Source: a virus. Taken from it: a DNA stretch of 64,000 bases. The position numbers were made by a program, and so were the translations under genes. Location: the IMG/VR virus record IMGVR_UViG_3300032214_001462, positions 1 to 64,000 of that record; one strand, 5' to 3'. The notes below the pieces were generated by a model. It saw only the letters and a list, made by a program, of their open reading frames with translations, was not told where the DNA came from and did no database searches. The first letter of the stretch is position 1; every line of letters begins with the position of its first letter. This document shows positions 3,486-38,469 of the stretch, piece by piece.

Positions 3486-3509
3486 GAGTTGAGATGAGAT
3501 GGATTGGTC

Positions 3510-3532
3510 AGTTTTACGTCGTGACCAGGACG
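3510..3532 (-). promoter_or_regulatory. Family A inverted repeat, copy 1
   Basis: Minus-strand reading: CGTC-CTGGTCAC-GACG followed by TAAAACTG, 30 nt before the ATG at 3485. The four-base stem, eight-base loop and AAACTG flank match copies near 6.68, 7.79, 10.72, 16.66 and 21.51 kb. Confidence 0.6.
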
Positions 3533-3569
3533 CCCACACCCCCGTGGAACAGCAAGTCTACCAGCTCTG

Positions 3570-6648: not shown

Positions 6649-6671
6649 GGTTTTTTCTTAGCAAAGATGGA

Positions 6672-6695
6672 CAGTTTAACGTCATATCCAGGACG
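6672..6695 (-). promoter_or_regulatory. Family A inverted repeat, copy 2
   Basis: Minus-strand reading: CGTC-CTGGATAT-GACG then TTAAACTG, 24 nt before the ATG at 6648. Stem and AAACTG flank are as in the other copies; the loop keeps the CTGG start. Confidence 0.6.
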
Positions 6696-6715
6696 ATCTA
6701 TTTAATTGTTTTATT

Positions 6716-7755: not shown

Positions 7756-7779
7756 GAGATCAAATGTGAAGTGTTAAAG

Positions 7780-7805
7780 CAGTTTAACGTCATGCTTAGG
7801 ACGTT
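7780..7805 (-). promoter_or_regulatory. Family A inverted repeat, copy 3
   Basis: Minus-strand reading: AACGTC-CTAAGCAT-GACGTT followed by AAACTG. The six-base stem is the best copy of the family. It sits between the polymerase stop (7809) and the SSB start (7755). Confidence 0.65.
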
Positions 7806-10667: not shown

Positions 10668-10710
10668 GGTGTTGAGTTGAGTTGAATGATAAAAAAAACT
10701 GATGAGTAGT

Positions 10711-10730
10711 TTAGGGACATGCTCAGGTCC
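10711..10730 (-). promoter_or_regulatory. Family A inverted repeat, copy 4, with compensatory stem
   Basis: Minus-strand reading: GGAC-CTGAGCAT-GTCC followed by CTAAACT. The loop matches copy 5 exactly, but the stem is GGAC/GTCC where the others have CGTC/GACG. Both arms changed together, so pairing is under selection. The start codon it serves is at 10667. Confidence 0.65.
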
Positions 10731-10733
10731 ATC

Positions 10734-14506: not shown

Positions 14507-14534
14507 CTGGGACTTACACCTTATGGATGCCCAG
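14507..14534 (-). promoter_or_regulatory. Family B inverted repeat, copy 1
   Basis: Minus-strand stem CTGGG/CCCAG encloses CATCCATAAGGTGTAAGT. Copy 2 at 17.15 kb has nearly the same loop but a different, still complementary stem. Inside the loop CC-ATAA-GG can form a second small hairpin. Located 32 nt before the ATG at 14475. Confidence 0.6.
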
Positions 14535-14909: not shown

Positions 14910-16619
14910 TCAGCAATTAGATGCTAGCTGCTTTTCACGGGAGTGCAAGGCCAGCTTGAATGCAGCGGAGTACTGCTCTTGCTGGCAGTCATCCAATCGC
15001 TGGTTGCCAACACCAGCAATTTGTTTGACGTTCATCACACCCATGGATACATCCAGTTGGATGGTGAAGGTTGGTTTGCTATCAATCATGCAGAGCACAA
15101 TGAAGTGCTTGCGTTTCTTGATGTTCTCAGCATACTGAGATGCAGAGCCAACACAGTTGCGAACAGCTTGGCCCCATTGGGCTAGCTGATGCGTATCAAT
15201 GGGTTGGAGGAATGTCCATTCTTGTTCACCCATGTTGACCTTGACAGGCATAGGGAACAAGTCCTGGTACAGAGACTCCTTCTTGTTTGTGATCTTCCAC
15301 GCCTCTGCTTGTACATAGTCATGGAAGTCAGGCATACGCCAGCGCTTGGGTGGTTCAAGCGTCTTACCTTCTTCTAGAATGCGCATGATCATTGAGAATG
15401 TATCATTTAATTCATAGAAACTTTTAAGATGATAATCATAATCAGACATTGAACCAATACGTGCGCCAATGTCAAGTTCGTTATATTTACGCAAGATATT
15501 AAAGAATGAAGCAACAGACATATGTTGGCGTAGCCATTCAATTAATTGAGAATCAGTACGTAAATAGTCAAGACGAATTGAACGTAGCTCATCGTAGTAA
15601 GTACGGTAATGATCGAGTGGGCATTCAGGCCAAATCTTATTTACAAAGTGAATTGAATTAGTGATTTGCTCGAATGCTTTATAGCCATACTTAATTGTTT
15701 TACGTGCTGTATTATCTGGATTGTTATATTCTGCAGTGCAGCGATCAAGTTCTATTTGTAATTGTTTCTTGATATATGGAGTAGTAATGATATGACTGAT
15801 TGCTGTAAGTGTTACATAAGTTGAAGACAAAGTACCATGCTCTTTGCGGAATGATTCCGCAGTATCAAGCATGTTATCTACTGTCAACTTAAAGTTAGCT
15901 TTGTCAGAGATATGGCGAGTCAGTGACGCTGGTATGTCTAGCGCATCAAGTACGTTGTTGCACTTGATGCGATCAAAGATACCACGTGAATCAGACCATG
16001 ATGGTATGGTTGACATCAGCTCTTGCTCAAATTGAGTAATTGCTGCTGCCATATCACGTGACTTTTGGTAGTAATTACCAACGCTTGATTTACGCCAATG
16101 ACGAGAATCATTGCCATTAACAATGTCTTGCTTGGTAATTAATTGAGAGTAAGTAAAGATCTGTACGCCCCGACCAGTGGTGTGCTCAGTGCATTGATCT
16201 TTACTATTCCAGATTTGATGCGGCACCATCTTTGCTGCTGCCGATGTGTTCTTGAATCCATAGGCATAGCCATAGATATAGTCTTCACCTCGTTGAGGGA
16301 GCCATGCTGCGTACCAGCATTGTTCGTAGTGATAGAGAATAGCGATAGGTACAGTGCGTGCTTGCGGAGTTGCCACATCCACAAGCTTGGTAAACAATTG
16401 AAAACGGCCTGGTGCTAGCTCGCTATTGATGCGGTCTATCGCATCTTGCTGCAAGCCACTGCGTACGACATCTTCTGGGATCAGATGTGGGATATTACCC
16501 AGTGGGTACTTAGCTTTCTTAGGAGCCTTAGCAGGTTCCTGTTCTCTGACCAAAGCCTTGAGCTTTGGGTCATAGGCAAGCAGTTCTTGTTGGAGATTGG
16601 AGGGTAGAGCAAAATGCAT
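14910..16619 (-). CDS. PcfJ-like protein
   Basis: 569 residues. The C-terminal region has HQLAQWGQAVRNCVGSASQY then FIVLCMIDSKPTFTIQLDV and VKQIAGVGNQ, the pattern of PcfJ-like proteins (conserved C-V-G-S, then an antiparallel sheet). PcfJ homologues are found on conjugative plasmids and in phages; their role is unknown. The N-terminal 400 residues are helical and not recognised. It is the second longest early gene. The leader carries family A copy 5 and a CAACTC spacer. Confidence 0.65.
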   Translation of the reverse strand: MHFALPSNLQQELLAYDPKLKALVREQEPAKAPKKAKYPLGNIPHLIPEDVVRSGLQQDAIDRINSELAPGRFQLFTKLVDVATPQARTVPIAILYHYEQCWYAAWLPQRGEDYIYGYAYGFKNTSAAAKMVPHQIWNSKDQCTEHTTGRGVQIFTYSQLITKQDIVNGNDSRHWRKSSVGNYYQKSRDMAAAITQFEQELMSTIPSWSDSRGIFDRIKCNNVLDALDIPASLTRHISDKANFKLTVDNMLDTAESFRKEHGTLSSTYVTLTAISHIITTPYIKKQLQIELDRCTAEYNNPDNTARKTIKYGYKAFEQITNSIHFVNKIWPECPLDHYRTYYDELRSIRLDYLRTDSQLIEWLRQHMSVASFFNILRKYNELDIGARIGSMSDYDYHLKSFYELNDTFSMIMRILEEGKTLEPPKRWRMPDFHDYVQAEAWKITNKKESLYQDLFPMPVKVNMGEQEWTFLQPIDTHQLAQWGQAVRNCVGSASQYAENIKKRKHFIVLCMIDSKPTFTIQLDVSMGVMNVKQIAGVGNQRLDDCQQEQYSAAFKLALHSREKQLASNC

Positions 16620-16653
16620 GAGTTGAGTTCGTAGTTGGTTCGTAGTATTGAGC

Positions 16654-16677
16654 AGTTTAGCGTCATGCTCAGGACGT
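16654..16677 (-). promoter_or_regulatory. Family A inverted repeat, copy 5
   Basis: Minus-strand reading: CGTC-CTGAGCAT-GACG followed by CTAAACTG. The loop is identical to copy 4 and the stem to the majority form. The start served is at 16619, about 35 nt on. Confidence 0.6.
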
Positions 16678-17138: not shown

Positions 17139-17172
17139 GATCTAGGACTTACACCTTACGGATGCCTAGATC
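17139..17172 (-). promoter_or_regulatory. Family B inverted repeat, copy 2
   Basis: GATCTAGG pairs with CCTAGATC (8 bp). Minus-strand loop CATCCGTAAGGTGTAAGT differs from copy 1 by one base, while the stem differs at several paired positions. The inner CC-GTAA-GG is a GNRA-type tetraloop hairpin. It starts 2 nt after the stop of the upstream gene. Confidence 0.65.
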
Positions 17173-19197: not shown

Positions 19198-19425
19198 CTA
19201 GCCGTGGGGTACGAAGTCAGAGTCGCTGAGCAATTGGTGGACTGACAGGCAGTCCTCTGCAATCTCATCTCTGGTGCAGCCGTCCCAATCATCAGATTGA
19301 TCTTCGATCACTTCGCAGCCAATGTCTTCGAGTTGATCGACGAATTGATTCCAGGTACGTGCTTGGCCCCAGACGTGGGCATAACGCCCAGTGAGGTCAG
19401 CGACTAGTGCGATGTGGAGTCCCAT
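19198..19425 (-). CDS. Hypothetical acidic protein
   Basis: 75 residues, starting MGLHIALVADLTGRYAHVWG and becoming acidic with several Cys. The ATG at 19425 was preferred over one at 19455, which would overlap the upstream gene more. It overlaps that gene by 29 nt. No family recognised. Confidence 0.5.
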   Translation of the reverse strand: MGLHIALVADLTGRYAHVWGQARTWNQFVDQLEDIGCEVIEDQSDDWDGCTRDEIAEDCLSVHQLLSDSDFVPHG

Positions 19426-19600
19426 TGTTCTGTGGTGTGATGTTGGTGATGTCAACGCCTAACAGTGCAGGCACTGTGAATGAGGCGATGATGATGGCAA
19501 AGGTTGCGACCAGTACATTCCCTAGTCGATTCTCATGAGTCTCACCATAAGAATCAAGGGTGATGTACTTGCCTTTGCCCATGGAGTAAATAGTTCGCAT
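19397..19600 (-). CDS. Small single-pass membrane protein
   Basis: 67 residues: basic N-terminus with MGKGKYITL, then a hydrophobic helix NVLVATFAIIIASFTVPALL (about residues 27-46). The ATG at 19600 follows a family C leader and CACACAACACC. Function unknown. Confidence 0.5.
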   Translation of the reverse strand: MRTIYSMGKGKYITLDSYGETHENRLGNVLVATFAIIIASFTVPALLGVDITNITPQNNGTPHRTSR

Positions 19601-19631
19601 GGTGTTGTGTGCAGTTGCTGCAGGAGGTGAG

Positions 19632-19690
19632 TCCTGCAGTAAACCCACCACCGATACGGATCCGTATCAATGGAAGGGTTAAGAGCAGGA
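19632..19690 (-). promoter_or_regulatory. Family C leader with nested inverted repeats, copy 1
   Basis: TCCTGC/GCAGGA and AACCC/GGGTT flank a perfect 16-base palindrome, GATACGGATCCGTATC (19653-19668). On the minus strand, TTTACTGCAGGACTCA follows. CTGCAGGA can pair instead with TCCTGCAG nearer the gene, so two exclusive structures are possible. The palindrome recurs at 21645. Confidence 0.55.
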
Positions 19691-19695
19691 GTCTG

Positions 19696-20079
19696 TCAGA
19701 AAGGAATTTCTTCCAGTGTAGGTTCTACCTGGAGTGTTGGTTCAACCGTTGCCTTGGGCTTAGGTGCTGAACCAATGGTTGCCCTTACGTTTGTAAGAGC
19801 GATCTCTGGGTAGCGAAGAGGAAGTAGTTGTTCATCCTTGGTGTAGTGCGTACGAATACTTGCGATCCGTACGTCCCACTGGCTAAGGATGAGTTGCTGT
19901 CCGACAACGAATGTACCGTTGCGGTAAGCAGTTAACAATCCGTTGGAATTGTTAAATTTAATCCGACAAGACTTGTCGTATGCATCATTGACTGCAACTG
20001 TGATTGCAAGGAATTCACGTCCTTCATAGGTCGCGACTTCCATGTAAGTAACGTTGCCAATGATGGTGTTAGAGAACAT
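19696..20079 (-). CDS. Second SSB-like OB-fold protein
   Basis: 127 residues. A beta-rich N-terminal domain (IIGNVTYMEVATYEGREFLA, then ITVAVND and RNGTFVVGQQLILSQWDV) reads like an OB fold. A Pro/Thr/Glu linker leads to LEEIPF, the typical acidic-aromatic tip of SSB. It is shorter than the 6.9 kb SSB and in a different unit, so the phage seems to carry two. It may serve another step such as recombination. Confidence 0.6.
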   Translation of the reverse strand: MFSNTIIGNVTYMEVATYEGREFLAITVAVNDAYDKSCRIKFNNSNGLLTAYRNGTFVVGQQLILSQWDVRIASIRTHYTKDEQLLPLRYPEIALTNVRATIGSAPKPKATVEPTLQVEPTLEEIPF

Positions 20080-20117
20080 GGTTGGTATGAAGTTGAGTTG
20101 ATGTACAGGATGTTGAG

Positions 20118-20175
20118 TCCTGCAGTAAACCTACCGTCGTAGTACATACGTACTGACGGCAGGGCTTAGAGCAGG
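20118..20175 (-). promoter_or_regulatory. Family C leader, copy 2
   Basis: TCCTGC/GCAGG enclose a hairpin with arms CCGTC/GACGG and AGTAC/GTACT. The gene-proximal block, CAGGATGTTGAGTCCTGCAG and TAAA, is identical to copy 3. CAGGA/TCCTG can form an alternative stem. About 39 nt before the ATG at 20079. Confidence 0.55.
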
Positions 20176-20177
20176 GA

Positions 20178-20381
20178 TCAGTTTAGATACTTTGCATTAA
20201 TGCAGTAGTAGCTATCACCAAGGAAGCTCTTGGTGTAGATCAGGTTATGTCCTGGTCTGTTGTTGCATGTCTTCTTGTAGTGTTGGTTGAGTAGCTTCTG
20301 GCCTCCAGCAGAAAGGAATAAGCCACAACCAACGCCGAGAACAAGAGCAACACAGGAATCGATAAAGTGATTGTTTGTCAT
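20178..20381 (-). CDS. Small membrane protein
   Basis: 67 residues. After MTNNHFIDS a hydrophobic helix CVALVLGVGCGLFLSAGG (about residues 10-27) is followed by a basic, Cys- and Tyr-containing tail. The ATG at 20381 was chosen because a purine-poor spacer precedes it; a start at 20411 is possible. Function unknown. Confidence 0.5.
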   Translation of the reverse strand: MTNNHFIDSCVALVLGVGCGLFLSAGGQKLLNQHYKKTCNNRPGHNLIYTKSFLGDSYYCINAKYLN

Positions 20382-20407
20382 GGTGTTATGTAGTGTGTTA
20401 AGAACGC

Positions 20408-20680
20408 TCACATCATTTGCATGATGCGTTCTTGTTCCATGTCGATGCTGTACTCGTAGTACTCATGCATCTCCATGAGCATGTCTTTCATTGAGCTTGG
20501 TAATCCACCGCCGAGAGTACGGACATCACGCTCCAACCATTCCTGGTATGTAGCATTGGTATCGGCGTCGAATGTATTCCATAGCTTCTCGAAGTGAAGC
20601 ATGGTTGATTCACCGCCGTACCATGTGATGCGATACTGATGTTCGCCGGATGGTTTGTAGACCAGTGCAGGTGTTGTCAC
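20408..20680 (-). CDS. Hypothetical protein, GTG start
   Basis: 90 residues, starting at GTG with MTTPALVYKPSGEHQYRITW and ending in Met-rich helices (MEQERIMQMM). The longer frame to 20758 would read through the family C leader; the GTG directly after CAACTCAACA is the natural start. No family recognised. Confidence 0.5.
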   Translation of the reverse strand: MTTPALVYKPSGEHQYRITWYGGESTMLHFEKLWNTFDADTNATYQEWLERDVRTLGGGLPSSMKDMLMEMHEYYEYSIDMEQERIMQMM

Positions 20681-20717
20681 TGTTGAGTTGAGGTAGTGTT
20701 GATGACAGGATGTTGAG

Positions 20718-20752
20718 TCCTGCAGTAAAGGCCCGTAGGCCCTTAGTGCAGA
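20718..20752 (-). promoter_or_regulatory. Family C leader, copy 3
   Basis: CCTGC/GCAG-type outer arms enclose GGCC-CGTA-GGCC. The gene-proximal CAGGATGTTGAGTCCTGCAG block matches copy 2 exactly. It follows the stop of the 20755 gene by two bases and lies about 38 nt before the GTG at 20680. Confidence 0.55.
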
Positions 20753-20754
20753 AG

Positions 20755-20928
20755 TCAAAGTTCAGTCTTGGGAGTAATGACAAATGCCATATCGTTAGGC
20801 ATCAGCAGGGCTGCTGCACGTATACGGTATTCATTTAGCTTGGTGCTGACATACTCCTTAGATTTGTCACTCTCCAGCATTGCTGCTGTTGAGATAAGTG
20901 CATTGGCTAGTCCTTTGCGGATACCCAT
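20755..20928 (-). CDS. Small hypothetical protein
   Basis: 57 residues, starting MGIRKGLANALISTAAMLES, helical, with a beta-like end MAFVITPKTEL. The frame extends to 21096 but would then cross two hairpins; the ATG at 20928 is preferred. No family recognised. Confidence 0.45.
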   Translation of the reverse strand: MGIRKGLANALISTAAMLESDKSKEYVSTKLNEYRIRAAALLMPNDMAFVITPKTEL

Positions 20929-20943
20929 ATTGTGTAGTGTAGA

Positions 20944-20989
20944 TGCCACGGGATTGTGGCAATAACTGGGCAGGGGTTTGCACCCTGCC
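20944..20989 (-). promoter_or_regulatory. Two tandem hairpins in the leader of the 20928 gene
   Basis: TGCCAC-GGGATT-GTGGCA (20944-20961) and GGCAGGG-GTTTGCA-CCCTGCC (20969-20989) are perfect stems in the 76-nt gap between two minus-strand genes. The second could terminate the upstream gene, the first could control the downstream one. Confidence 0.5.
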
Positions 20990-21004
20990 ACCCGCTTTAA
21001 CGGA

Positions 21005-21208
21005 TCAGCTAGTTTGGAAGGCTGACCTGAACATTGAGTCATACACCTTATGTGTAACCTCGCGGTTCGGATCGTTAATCGCAACAAAGCGATCAACCAT
21101 TTCAGCTAGGCAGACTTCATAGTCAACCATTCTCTGACAACAATCTTCAATTGCTGCCTCACGAAGTGAGATCAGCACTTCAAGAGTGTGAGCAAGAGCT
21201 TGGTCCAC
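21005..21208 (-). CDS. Small helical protein, GTG start
   Basis: 67 residues, all-helical, containing LREAAIEDCCQRMVDYEVCL. GTG at 21208 has AGGAG 7 nt upstream, a normal Shine-Dalgarno site and rare in this region; the longer frame to 21274 lacks one. No family recognised. Confidence 0.5.
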   Translation of the reverse strand: MDQALAHTLEVLISLREAAIEDCCQRMVDYEVCLAEMVDRFVAINDPNREVTHKVYDSMFRSAFQTS

Positions 21209-21293
21209 AGGAATCTCCTGTTGTGTGCGGTGCCTATCTCCGCTGGAGGCAATGACCAGAGCCAGGCATTGCACCTGGCTTGGGAGCTATAAC

Positions 21294-21473
21294 TCACCTG
21301 GCCTGAAGCTGACGTACGAACTTACGTGCGTTGTTAACTGACATCGTGGTGCTGCAGTCGTAACCCTTCTGGCTCTTACGAACCAGCTTGGTGATACGAG
21401 CTAAGCCCACTTGCTTGTTAACCACGAAGTGATACGTTGCTTGCTTGGTTGAGATTGTGAAGAAGATGTCCAT
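21294..21473 (-). CDS. Small basic protein, first gene of the leftward arm
   Basis: 59 residues, starting MDIFFTISTKQATYHFVVNK and ending VNNARKFVRQLQAR, strongly basic, so nucleic-acid binding is possible. The spacer CTCAAATCA and a family A element precede its ATG. As the first gene after the divergent region it should be among the earliest expressed. No family recognised. Confidence 0.5.
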   Translation of the reverse strand: MDIFFTISTKQATYHFVVNKQVGLARITKLVRKSQKGYDCSTTMSVNNARKFVRQLQAR

Positions 21474-21504
21474 TGATTTGAGATGGATTGAAGGTTGCTG
21501 CGTT

Positions 21505-21522
21505 TAACGTCCAGCTCGACGT
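21505..21522 (-). promoter_or_regulatory. Family A inverted repeat, copy 6 (divergent)
   Basis: Minus-strand ACGTC-GAGCTG-GACGT followed by TTAAACG. Stem and flank fit the family; the loop is six bases and not conserved. About 33 nt before the ATG at 21473. Confidence 0.45.
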
Positions 21523-21940
21523 AGCTATCAAAGTAGATAGATAAGAATCAAGTGCTGAACTGCGTTCTCACCCTTGGTCCTCCCTTGAAAGCTACTGTCT
21601 TATATGGACGAGAGCGGGGCGGGGCGCAGATTATACCCATGTGCGATACGGATTCGTATCAAAATCAAGGTAAATGTATCAAATTATACAGTTCTAAGGG
21701 TGTTTAGTGAGCGCAGCGAGCGCTCCCTTCGTGAACGAAGTGAACTCTACATGCTTCTAAGCATTTATACTCACTTCCTCACAGGTAACACCCTATCCTT
21801 TCTTTTTTTCTATACGTAATCCACTACGCGTAGGGTATATAAGAAGCGTCAGCAAATTTTTTATCCTTTTTTGACCTCTATAGGAGCCGATTTTTGTAAA
21901 GAATGTAAGGTTATACTTGCTTTTGCCCAAGAAAACACAC
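21523..21940. other. Non-coding divergent control region
   Basis: Apart from a low-quality plus-strand frame (21604-21819) rich in Arg-Ser-Glu repeats, no gene is seen. The region holds a GC-rich block (21610-21628), the 21645 palindrome, a GAGCG-type inverted repeat with TTCG-TGAA-CGAA (about 21710-21745), and AT-rich stretches after 21780. It separates leftward and rightward arms, so it is the natural place for early promoters and possibly an origin; neither is proven. Confidence 0.45.
21630..21660 (-). promoter_or_regulatory. Candidate leftward promoter with palindromic operator
   Basis: On the minus strand, GATACGAATCCGTATC (one mismatch from perfect) is followed after 9 nt by TATAAT. 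The palindrome would cover the -35 region. A perfect copy of the same palindrome at 19653-19668 is also followed after 9 nt by a box, TTTACT. Confidence 0.5.
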
Positions 21941-21965
21941 AAAAAAGCCGGGTTTTTACCCCGGC
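21941..21965 (-). terminator. Intrinsic terminator
   Basis: Minus-strand GCCGGG and CCCGGC arms around TAAAAA, followed by TTTTTTGTGTGTTTTC. It lies about 30 nt after the stop of the 21995-22204 gene. Confidence 0.8.
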
Positions 21966-21994
21966 GTTACCAAAATTTATTTTTAATTTTTTAT

Positions 21995-22204
21995 TCAGAG
22001 GTTTTGTTTACCCCATTTTGCTGCAGCTGAAGAAGCCTTTGCGTAAGCTTCGGGATCTGGACGCTCTGAAGAGAGTTTATTCCGTGCCCCAATAATAAAT
22101 TGCTGGACTTCTGTATCGCTAGTCCCTTCTTTTTTTAATTTATCCGCTGCATCAGCAATTGCATTGAGTGCAATCGCTTTTTCAATGCGATTTTTTGGGT
22201 TCAT
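21995..22204 (-). CDS. Small helical hypothetical protein
   Basis: 69 residues, Ala- and Lys-rich (IALNAIADAADKLKKEG), soluble. It stands alone between the divergent promoter area and its own terminator. No family recognised. Confidence 0.55.
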   Translation of the reverse strand: MNPKNRIEKAIALNAIADAADKLKKEGTSDTEVQQFIIGARNKLSSERPDPEAYAKASSAAAKWGKQNL

Positions 22205-22322
22205 AAGCCCAATTCCCGTTTTCTTGACTTATTTTCTTGTCAATAGTCTAGCGTATTCGCATTTTTCTTAAATTCTTCGAAGTAAAATACACATAACAAA
22301 GATACAAAAAAATAAATTAACC
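22205..22322 (+). promoter_or_regulatory. Presumed promoter of the late arm
   Basis: 118 nt, AT-rich. TTGACTTATTTTCTTGTCAA is an imperfect inverted repeat containing a TTGACT hexamer, and TAAAAT lies about 40 nt before the ATG at 22323. The two are too far apart for one classical promoter. The gap must also drive the divergent small gene. Confidence 0.35.
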
Positions 22323-38184: not shown

Positions 38185-38230
38185 AAACAAGTTTCCAAAT
38201 AGTAACATGCCTCAACTGAACGCTCAACGT

Positions 38231-38469
38231 TGTCACCTCACCGAGCAATCGATGAGTGCAAACCGGATGAATTCAGGGAAGCCCTAACGTAAAGACGAGG
38301 GTAATCCTGAGCCAAGCCAATCAAGCGTGATTGGAAGGTGCAGAGACTAGGCGGCTGGTGACGCTTCACCTGTAATACGCCATTAGCGTCCGGCATCCCA
38401 CAGGGATGAAGAGATAGTCCACCCCTCTAAGAAACTAGAGACCAGGAGAACGATTTTCCAAAAATCTTG
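38231..38469 (+). ncRNA. Group I intron (IA type) in the major capsid gene
   Basis: Paired elements can be drawn: P3 CCGGATG (38263) with CGTCCGG (38387); P4 TCAGG with CCTGA; P6 CCAAT with ATTGG; P7 GACTA (38345) with TAGTC (38415); P7.1 GGCG with CGCC; P7.2 GGTGA with TCACC; P8 CATCCC with GGGATG; P9 CTCTA with TAGAG. P7.1/P7.2 indicate subgroup IA. The 3' end is probably after TTG at 38469 (terminal G). The 5' end is uncertain: it may be at about 38230, or near 37627, which would place the HNH gene inside the intron. Confidence 0.8.

Follow-up and report, generated by a model that had tools for sequence, protein, structure and literature searches.

The window analysed here, a stretch of 64,000 nucleotides, belongs to a virus record of 80,662 bases, from a freshwater cyanobacterial virus related to Synechococcus phage S-EIV1 (KJ410740). 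Within it, three copies of a leader element, hereafter family C, sit in a leftward-oriented cluster of small genes, close to where gene direction diverges. Read along the minus strand, the locus is composed as follows.

20755–20928, minus strand: small ORFan gene before copy 3, with a probable start at 20928 (open frame to 21096) and a stop that abuts the element
20705–20754, minus strand: copy 3, short form (75.2 bits), the preceding gene's TGA ending at 20755; 5′ arm 20753–20748, hairpin H1 20745–20726 with a UACG loop, middle arm 20723–20718, 3′ arm 20710–20705
20408–20680, minus strand: small gene after copy 3, GTG start at 20680, 90 aa
20178–20381, minus strand: small gene before copy 2, 67 aa, its stop abutting the element
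20105–20177, minus strand: copy 2, long form (57.7 bits), the preceding gene's TGA ending at 20178; 5′ arm 20176–20171, central arm region 20168–20126, middle arm 20123–20118, 3′ arm 20110–20105
19696–20079, minus strand: gene after copy 2 and before copy 1, 127 aa, with homologues in relatives
19620–19691, minus strand: copy 1, long form with a 16-base palindrome (52.2 bits), the preceding gene's TGA at 19698–19696; 5′ arm 19690–19685, central arm region 19682–19640, middle arm 19637–19632, 3′ arm 19625–19620
19397–19600, minus strand: small gene after copy 1, ATG at 19600, 67 aa

The flanking genes gave no informative Pfam or PHROG match, the gene before copy 3 being searched as a stop-less translation.

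An earlier note on this DNA had described a sequence shared by three minus-strand leaders. Specifically, an exact 16-mer, reading TTTACTGCAGGACTCA on the minus strand, lies at 19628–19643, 20114–20129 and 20714–20729, its only three sites in the whole record; a search allowing 3 mismatches found 3 sites, all exact, where shuffling predicted 0.61. The positions that the note had reported (19632, 20118 and 20718) are the last base of each copy's middle arm. On the RNA strand, the element runs from a 5′ arm (YYCYUGC) through a short strip, the hairpin H1 and a second short strip to the middle arm GCAGGA, followed by CUCA... and a 3′ arm (UCCUGY), about 20 bases after which the start codon is found. 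The 5′ arms of copies 1, 2 and 3 are TCCTGC, CCCTGC and TTCTGC and the 3′ arms TCCTGC, TCCTGT and TCCTGT, with GCAGGA between them in all three. As the note had proposed, the middle arm can pair upstream (stem P1) or downstream (stem P3), never both. Its further observations hold as well: the central hairpin differs in each copy, being the 16-base palindrome GATACGGATCCGTATC, a long stem or GGCC-TACG-GGCC, and the three following genes are unrelated, falling into three separate blastp clusters.

In the short copies H1 has the form UAAGGGCC-UNCG-GGCCUUUA, and in the others a longer variable arm takes its place. UUCG and UACG loops closed by a C–G pair are typical of stable RNA hairpins, and their presence argues for an element acting at the RNA rather than the DNA level. 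In the window copies, P1 and H1 together form an imperfect duplex of about 15–23 pairs with an internal loop. Forced P1 and P3 folds gave −38.4 and −35.9 kcal/mol for copy 1, −32.5 and −29.0 for copy 2, and −21.5 and −17.4 for copy 3, so that P1 is favoured by 2.5, 3.5 and 4.1 kcal/mol, respectively. The palindrome of copy 1, GATACGNATNCGTATC at 19653–19668, recurs at 21645–21660 (2 found, 0.06 expected). There it stands where the leftward operon probably starts, separated by 9 bases from a TATAAT that follows on the minus strand. The RNA element could have borrowed a protein site, or the borrowing could have gone the other way.

Scanning IMG/VR with the exact 16-mer retrieved 33 stretches, 23 of which have the same leader anatomy by reading, while 10 are unrelated. 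A covariance model built from 24 family C copies matches 33 of the 33 records scored, a rate that is not independent, since every one apart from S-EIV1 and the record of the window itself was picked through a match to a DNA pattern or to the protein of a neighbouring gene. Most records hold 2–4 strong matches inside about 2 kb; it is the weaker ones that carry the information, as their middle arm differs. Among 34 records examined for a relative of the window's first rightward gene, nearly all of which carry the element, 30 encode one, the window's own record and S-EIV1 included, which indicates that the element-bearing phages form one loose lineage. Elsewhere, a scan of bacterial genomes returned 105 matches from mixed taxa; the best of the 80 listed reached 22.2 bits, compared to 25–78 for most phage copies, and we take the bacterial matches to be chance. 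Blastn against other phages gave weak matches only (E 0.4), in coding genes.

The comparison of relatives bears directly on whether both folds matter. In 50 distinct curated elements from S-EIV1-like phages, P3 is complete in 50 and P1 in 40, with at least 5 of the 6 P1 pairs present in all 50; when the 9 middle-arm types were permuted, none of 5000 permutations reached the observed pairing for either stem. A second sample was drawn from IMG/VR with H1 patterns only, thereby avoiding selection by the arms. Its 61 distinct elements show a full P3 in 59 cases and a full P1 in 48 (at least 5 of 6 P1 pairs in 60), and, over 11 middle-arm types, 0 of 20000 permutations matched the observed pairing of either stem. 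In the union of 86 copies, standard pairs account for 499 of 516 positions in P1 and 515 of 516 in P3, including 41 and 22 G–U pairs, respectively; these counts refer to sequences, near relatives included, and not to independent events. P3 is thus the tighter stem, while P1 is more often weakened by wobble pairs.

A change in the middle arm is often accompanied by a change in both of its partners. Given as 5′, middle and 3′ arm, such three-way changes include GUUUGC/GCAGAC/GUCUGC, GACUGC/GCAGUC/GACUGC, CUCAGC/GCUGGG/CCCAGC and GUUCUC/GAGGAC/GUCCUC, and further AUCUGC/GCAGGU/ACCUGC, GACUAC/GUAGUC/GGCUAC and CUCUGC/GCAGGG/CCCUGC. In some types the 5′ arm does not track the middle arm (GCAGGC, with one mismatch in 6 of 6). 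In the model-fitted alignment, which itself leans to this structure, 11 of the 14 pairs of P1 and H1 have changes on both sides. A basal UGA:UCA pairing, complete in 54 of 86 elements, was dropped as a covarying stem, its total being reached in 297 of 5000 shuffles. Outside the arms, the P3 loop varies between 3 and 9 bases and the apical part is fully variable; the strips between P1 and H1 are alike in most copies and altered in the CCAGGA and ACAGGA variants, which keep the arms. All together, these comparative data show that both pairings are maintained by compensatory change and give good support to the view that family C is a bistable RNA. An integron attC site or an insertion target duplication, either of which the direct repetition of the outer arms might suggest, was rejected, since outer and middle arms change together.

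The earlier note had read this layout as that of an attenuator or a ligand switch. The exclusive stems that it postulated are borne out and are conserved in relatives, two stems sharing an arm as in an attenuator; the two specific functions are not supported. No terminator-like site was found at any of the three window copies, and the U run comprises just 3–4 bases after H1, with none after P3, which leaves a terminator-type attenuator unsupported. Likewise, little constant sequence lies outside the pairing arms, so that a ligand switch lacks support. A riboswitch was rejected on the same kind of evidence: conservation is mainly in the pairing, the loops vary around no constant core, and Rfam yielded no match at the gathering score and no believable one up to E 5. 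Sequestration of the Shine-Dalgarno or start region was also rejected, the start region being equally open in both folds and Shine-Dalgarno-like sites being few; the sequence leading up to the starts holds little G (7%), and GGAG, GAGG or AGGA occurs in 11 of 86.

What best hints at the trigger of the switch, and had been missed in the earlier note, is the placement of the preceding stop codon. We searched from −12 to +2 of the 5′ arm for a stop closing an open frame of 45 codons or more, and 82 of the 86 elements had one (4 had none); in 63 of these 82 the stop ends exactly one base before the 5′ arm (offset −1). With a wider window and the longest frame, the same offset was found in 37 of 50 curated and 40 of 61 H1-selected elements. 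The sensing (5′) arm hence lies where a ribosome ends, as in a ribosome-responsive attenuator. Short gaps are to be expected to some degree in compact genomes, and the stop may abut the element merely as part of the base of P1 (UGA with UCA), an outer pairing that is weakly supported. As UGA precedes a hairpin, a SECIS element or stop readthrough was also considered. On the other side of the element, counting from where the middle arm begins, the next start lies 27–55 bases away in 86 of 86 elements, and 35–47 bases away in 84; from the end of P3 to the next start there are 19, 25 and 24 bases in window copies 1, 2 and 3.

Another leader type of the same phages, family A, offers a comparison: a stop was found for 22 of 27 of these pseudoknot leaders, scattered from −5 to −70, which indicates that family A is without the stop-codon constraint of family C. 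In the window, family A lies on the minus strand at 3507–3533, 6670–6696, 7778–7804, 10705–10731 and 16651–16677, and it is present in S-EIV1 and relatives too. Its sequence (CGUC..AGCA..GACG UUAAAC UGCU) has the reading of an H-type pseudoknot, and inspection by eye shows apparent compensatory changes in both stems.

The constrained distance between stop and arm makes the ribosome of the preceding gene the simplest candidate for the trigger. The footprint of a terminating ribosome reaches about 9–12 bases past the stop codon. We suggest that H1 and P1 would fold first as the RNA emerges, and that a ribosome ending on the stop of the preceding gene would cover the 5′ arm, undo P1 and let P3 form; the element would in this way record translation of the preceding gene and pass the signal on to the next. 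Computed folding agrees with such a course. Left free, 41 of 50 copies have P1 above P3 (mean probabilities 0.83 and 0.16), and under a mask that starts ahead of the stop codon and runs 6 bases into the 5′ arm P1 is ahead in 0 of 50 and P3 averages 0.98; in window copy 3, P3 attains just 0.63 with nine bases masked. As P3 is a perfect stem, its appearance under the mask is a consistency check and not proof.

How the signal would be read is the least certain part. We favour initiation at the next gene as the output: P3 ends 19–25 bases before the start, at the edge of the reach of 30S subunit binding, and P1 leaves that stretch single-stranded. The computed accessibility of the start region is nearly unchanged (0.67 free vs 0.68 masked, 50 copies), which speaks against simple occlusion of the start, and either P1 or P3 could be the "on" state. 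In conclusion, the most likely reading, to which we give about an even chance, is that family C is an intercistronic, ribosome-gated bistable element of S-EIV1-like cyanophages, probably reading the translation of the preceding gene.

The main alternative for the output, mRNA processing or decay, is also a serious rival to the reading as a whole. According to it, RNase III-type host enzymes, of the kind that cut intergenic sites in T7, would cleave the P1 and H1 duplex, and P3 would then shield the new 5′ end as a protective hairpin, the two folds being successive states rather than a sensed switch. The intercistronic place, the long imperfect duplex with its internal loop, the variable apex and the location of P3 near the would-be 5′ end are all as expected from such a site, which would in addition account for P3 being better conserved than P1. 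Nevertheless, processing alone leaves the one-base distance to the stop unexplained and gives no reason for P1 to use the arm of P3, and we hold it to be possible but rather doubtful.

We consider it improbable that an RNA-binding protein, of phage or host, or a small molecule operates the switch by preferring P1 or P3. The likeness of the strips between P1 and H1 in most copies speaks for it; yet they are altered in the two variant types that keep their arms, the P3 loop changes in length, no believable Rfam relative exists within the E value searched, and the genes that follow the elements fall into 14 blastp clusters of small proteins.

The gene order around the elements is itself variable. 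The genes before the 86 elements form 10 clusters, and upstream cluster 0 precedes downstream clusters 1, 2, 3, 4 and 6; counting pairs with an unassigned neighbour, there are 26 different neighbour pairs. Since one preceding cluster meets varied following ones, the elements stand at the joints of a reshuffled gene set. This pattern would suit a mainly DNA-level joint, a repeat at which small gene cassettes swap by recombination. On the other hand, homology-driven exchange needs no joint change of three arms, and the element yielded neither promoter nor terminator (for promoters, a sigma-70 consensus scan of 19300–22300 gave none); as the main explanation it is hardly likely, although it may be true in addition to the switch. 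Returning to the ribosome-gated element, a tentative extension, which we think the less probable outcome, is that of a relay, in which switches at successive early-gene joints would sense termination and set the next gene, allowing cassettes to reshuffle without losing their coupling.

Further elements were noted in the window. A third leader element, at 20958–21008 on the minus strand, consists of UGAUCCGUYAAAGCGGGU and a hairpin whose loop is GUGCAAAC-like; it is seen twice in S-EIV1 by eye, and Synechococcus phage S-SBP1 and an uncultured marine phage have a 51-base stretch that is 90% identical to it. A fourth, CUGGGCAUCCAUAAGGUGUAAGUCCCAG, is repeated at 14507–14534 and 17142–17169 (minus strand), and S-EIV1 has stretches that look similar by eye. 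In addition, a group I intron (95.5 bits) lies in the late region at 38203–38441 on the plus strand, and a 569-aa protein encoded at 14910–16619 on the minus strand has a PcfJ-like domain (E 1.1e-6, above its cut-off).

These data depict an RNA family outside Rfam in which three-way compensatory changes show both exclusive folds to be under selection. The placement of the stop codon yields a clear and testable claim, namely that ribosome termination itself is the signal. If true, it would show how neighbouring genes are coupled in a virus that makes little use of Shine-Dalgarno sites, and would provide a small, transferable part for work on RNA refolding driven by translation. Among the titles and, for the most part, abstract openings searched, no description of the element was found.

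The closest known systems share parts of this architecture. In the trp and erm leaders, alternative stems share an arm and the position of the ribosome decides between them, as proposed for family C; here, however, the ribosome would stand at the stop of an ordinary preceding gene and not in a leader peptide, and the element has three arms, no terminator, no hidden Shine-Dalgarno and several copies per operon. RepY–RepZ coupling in IncI-type plasmids, which involves a pseudoknot and an antisense RNA, is similar in that termination of the upstream frame refolds the RNA before the next start, whereas neither a pseudoknot nor an antisense RNA was seen in family C. Structured leader RNAs are also present in phages of cyanobacteria: the manA, wcaG and PhotoRC-II RNAs, according to passages of PMC2864571, precede metabolic or photosynthesis genes and, unlike family C, are represented in Rfam. 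Finally, the promoter early stem-loops (PeSLs) of T4-type phages are likewise placed between small early genes and linked to gene shuffling, as a passage of PMC4503421 relates, citing Arbiol 2010 and Comeau 2014; there they carry promoters and terminators, whereas family C, with neither by scan, has two mutually exclusive stems.
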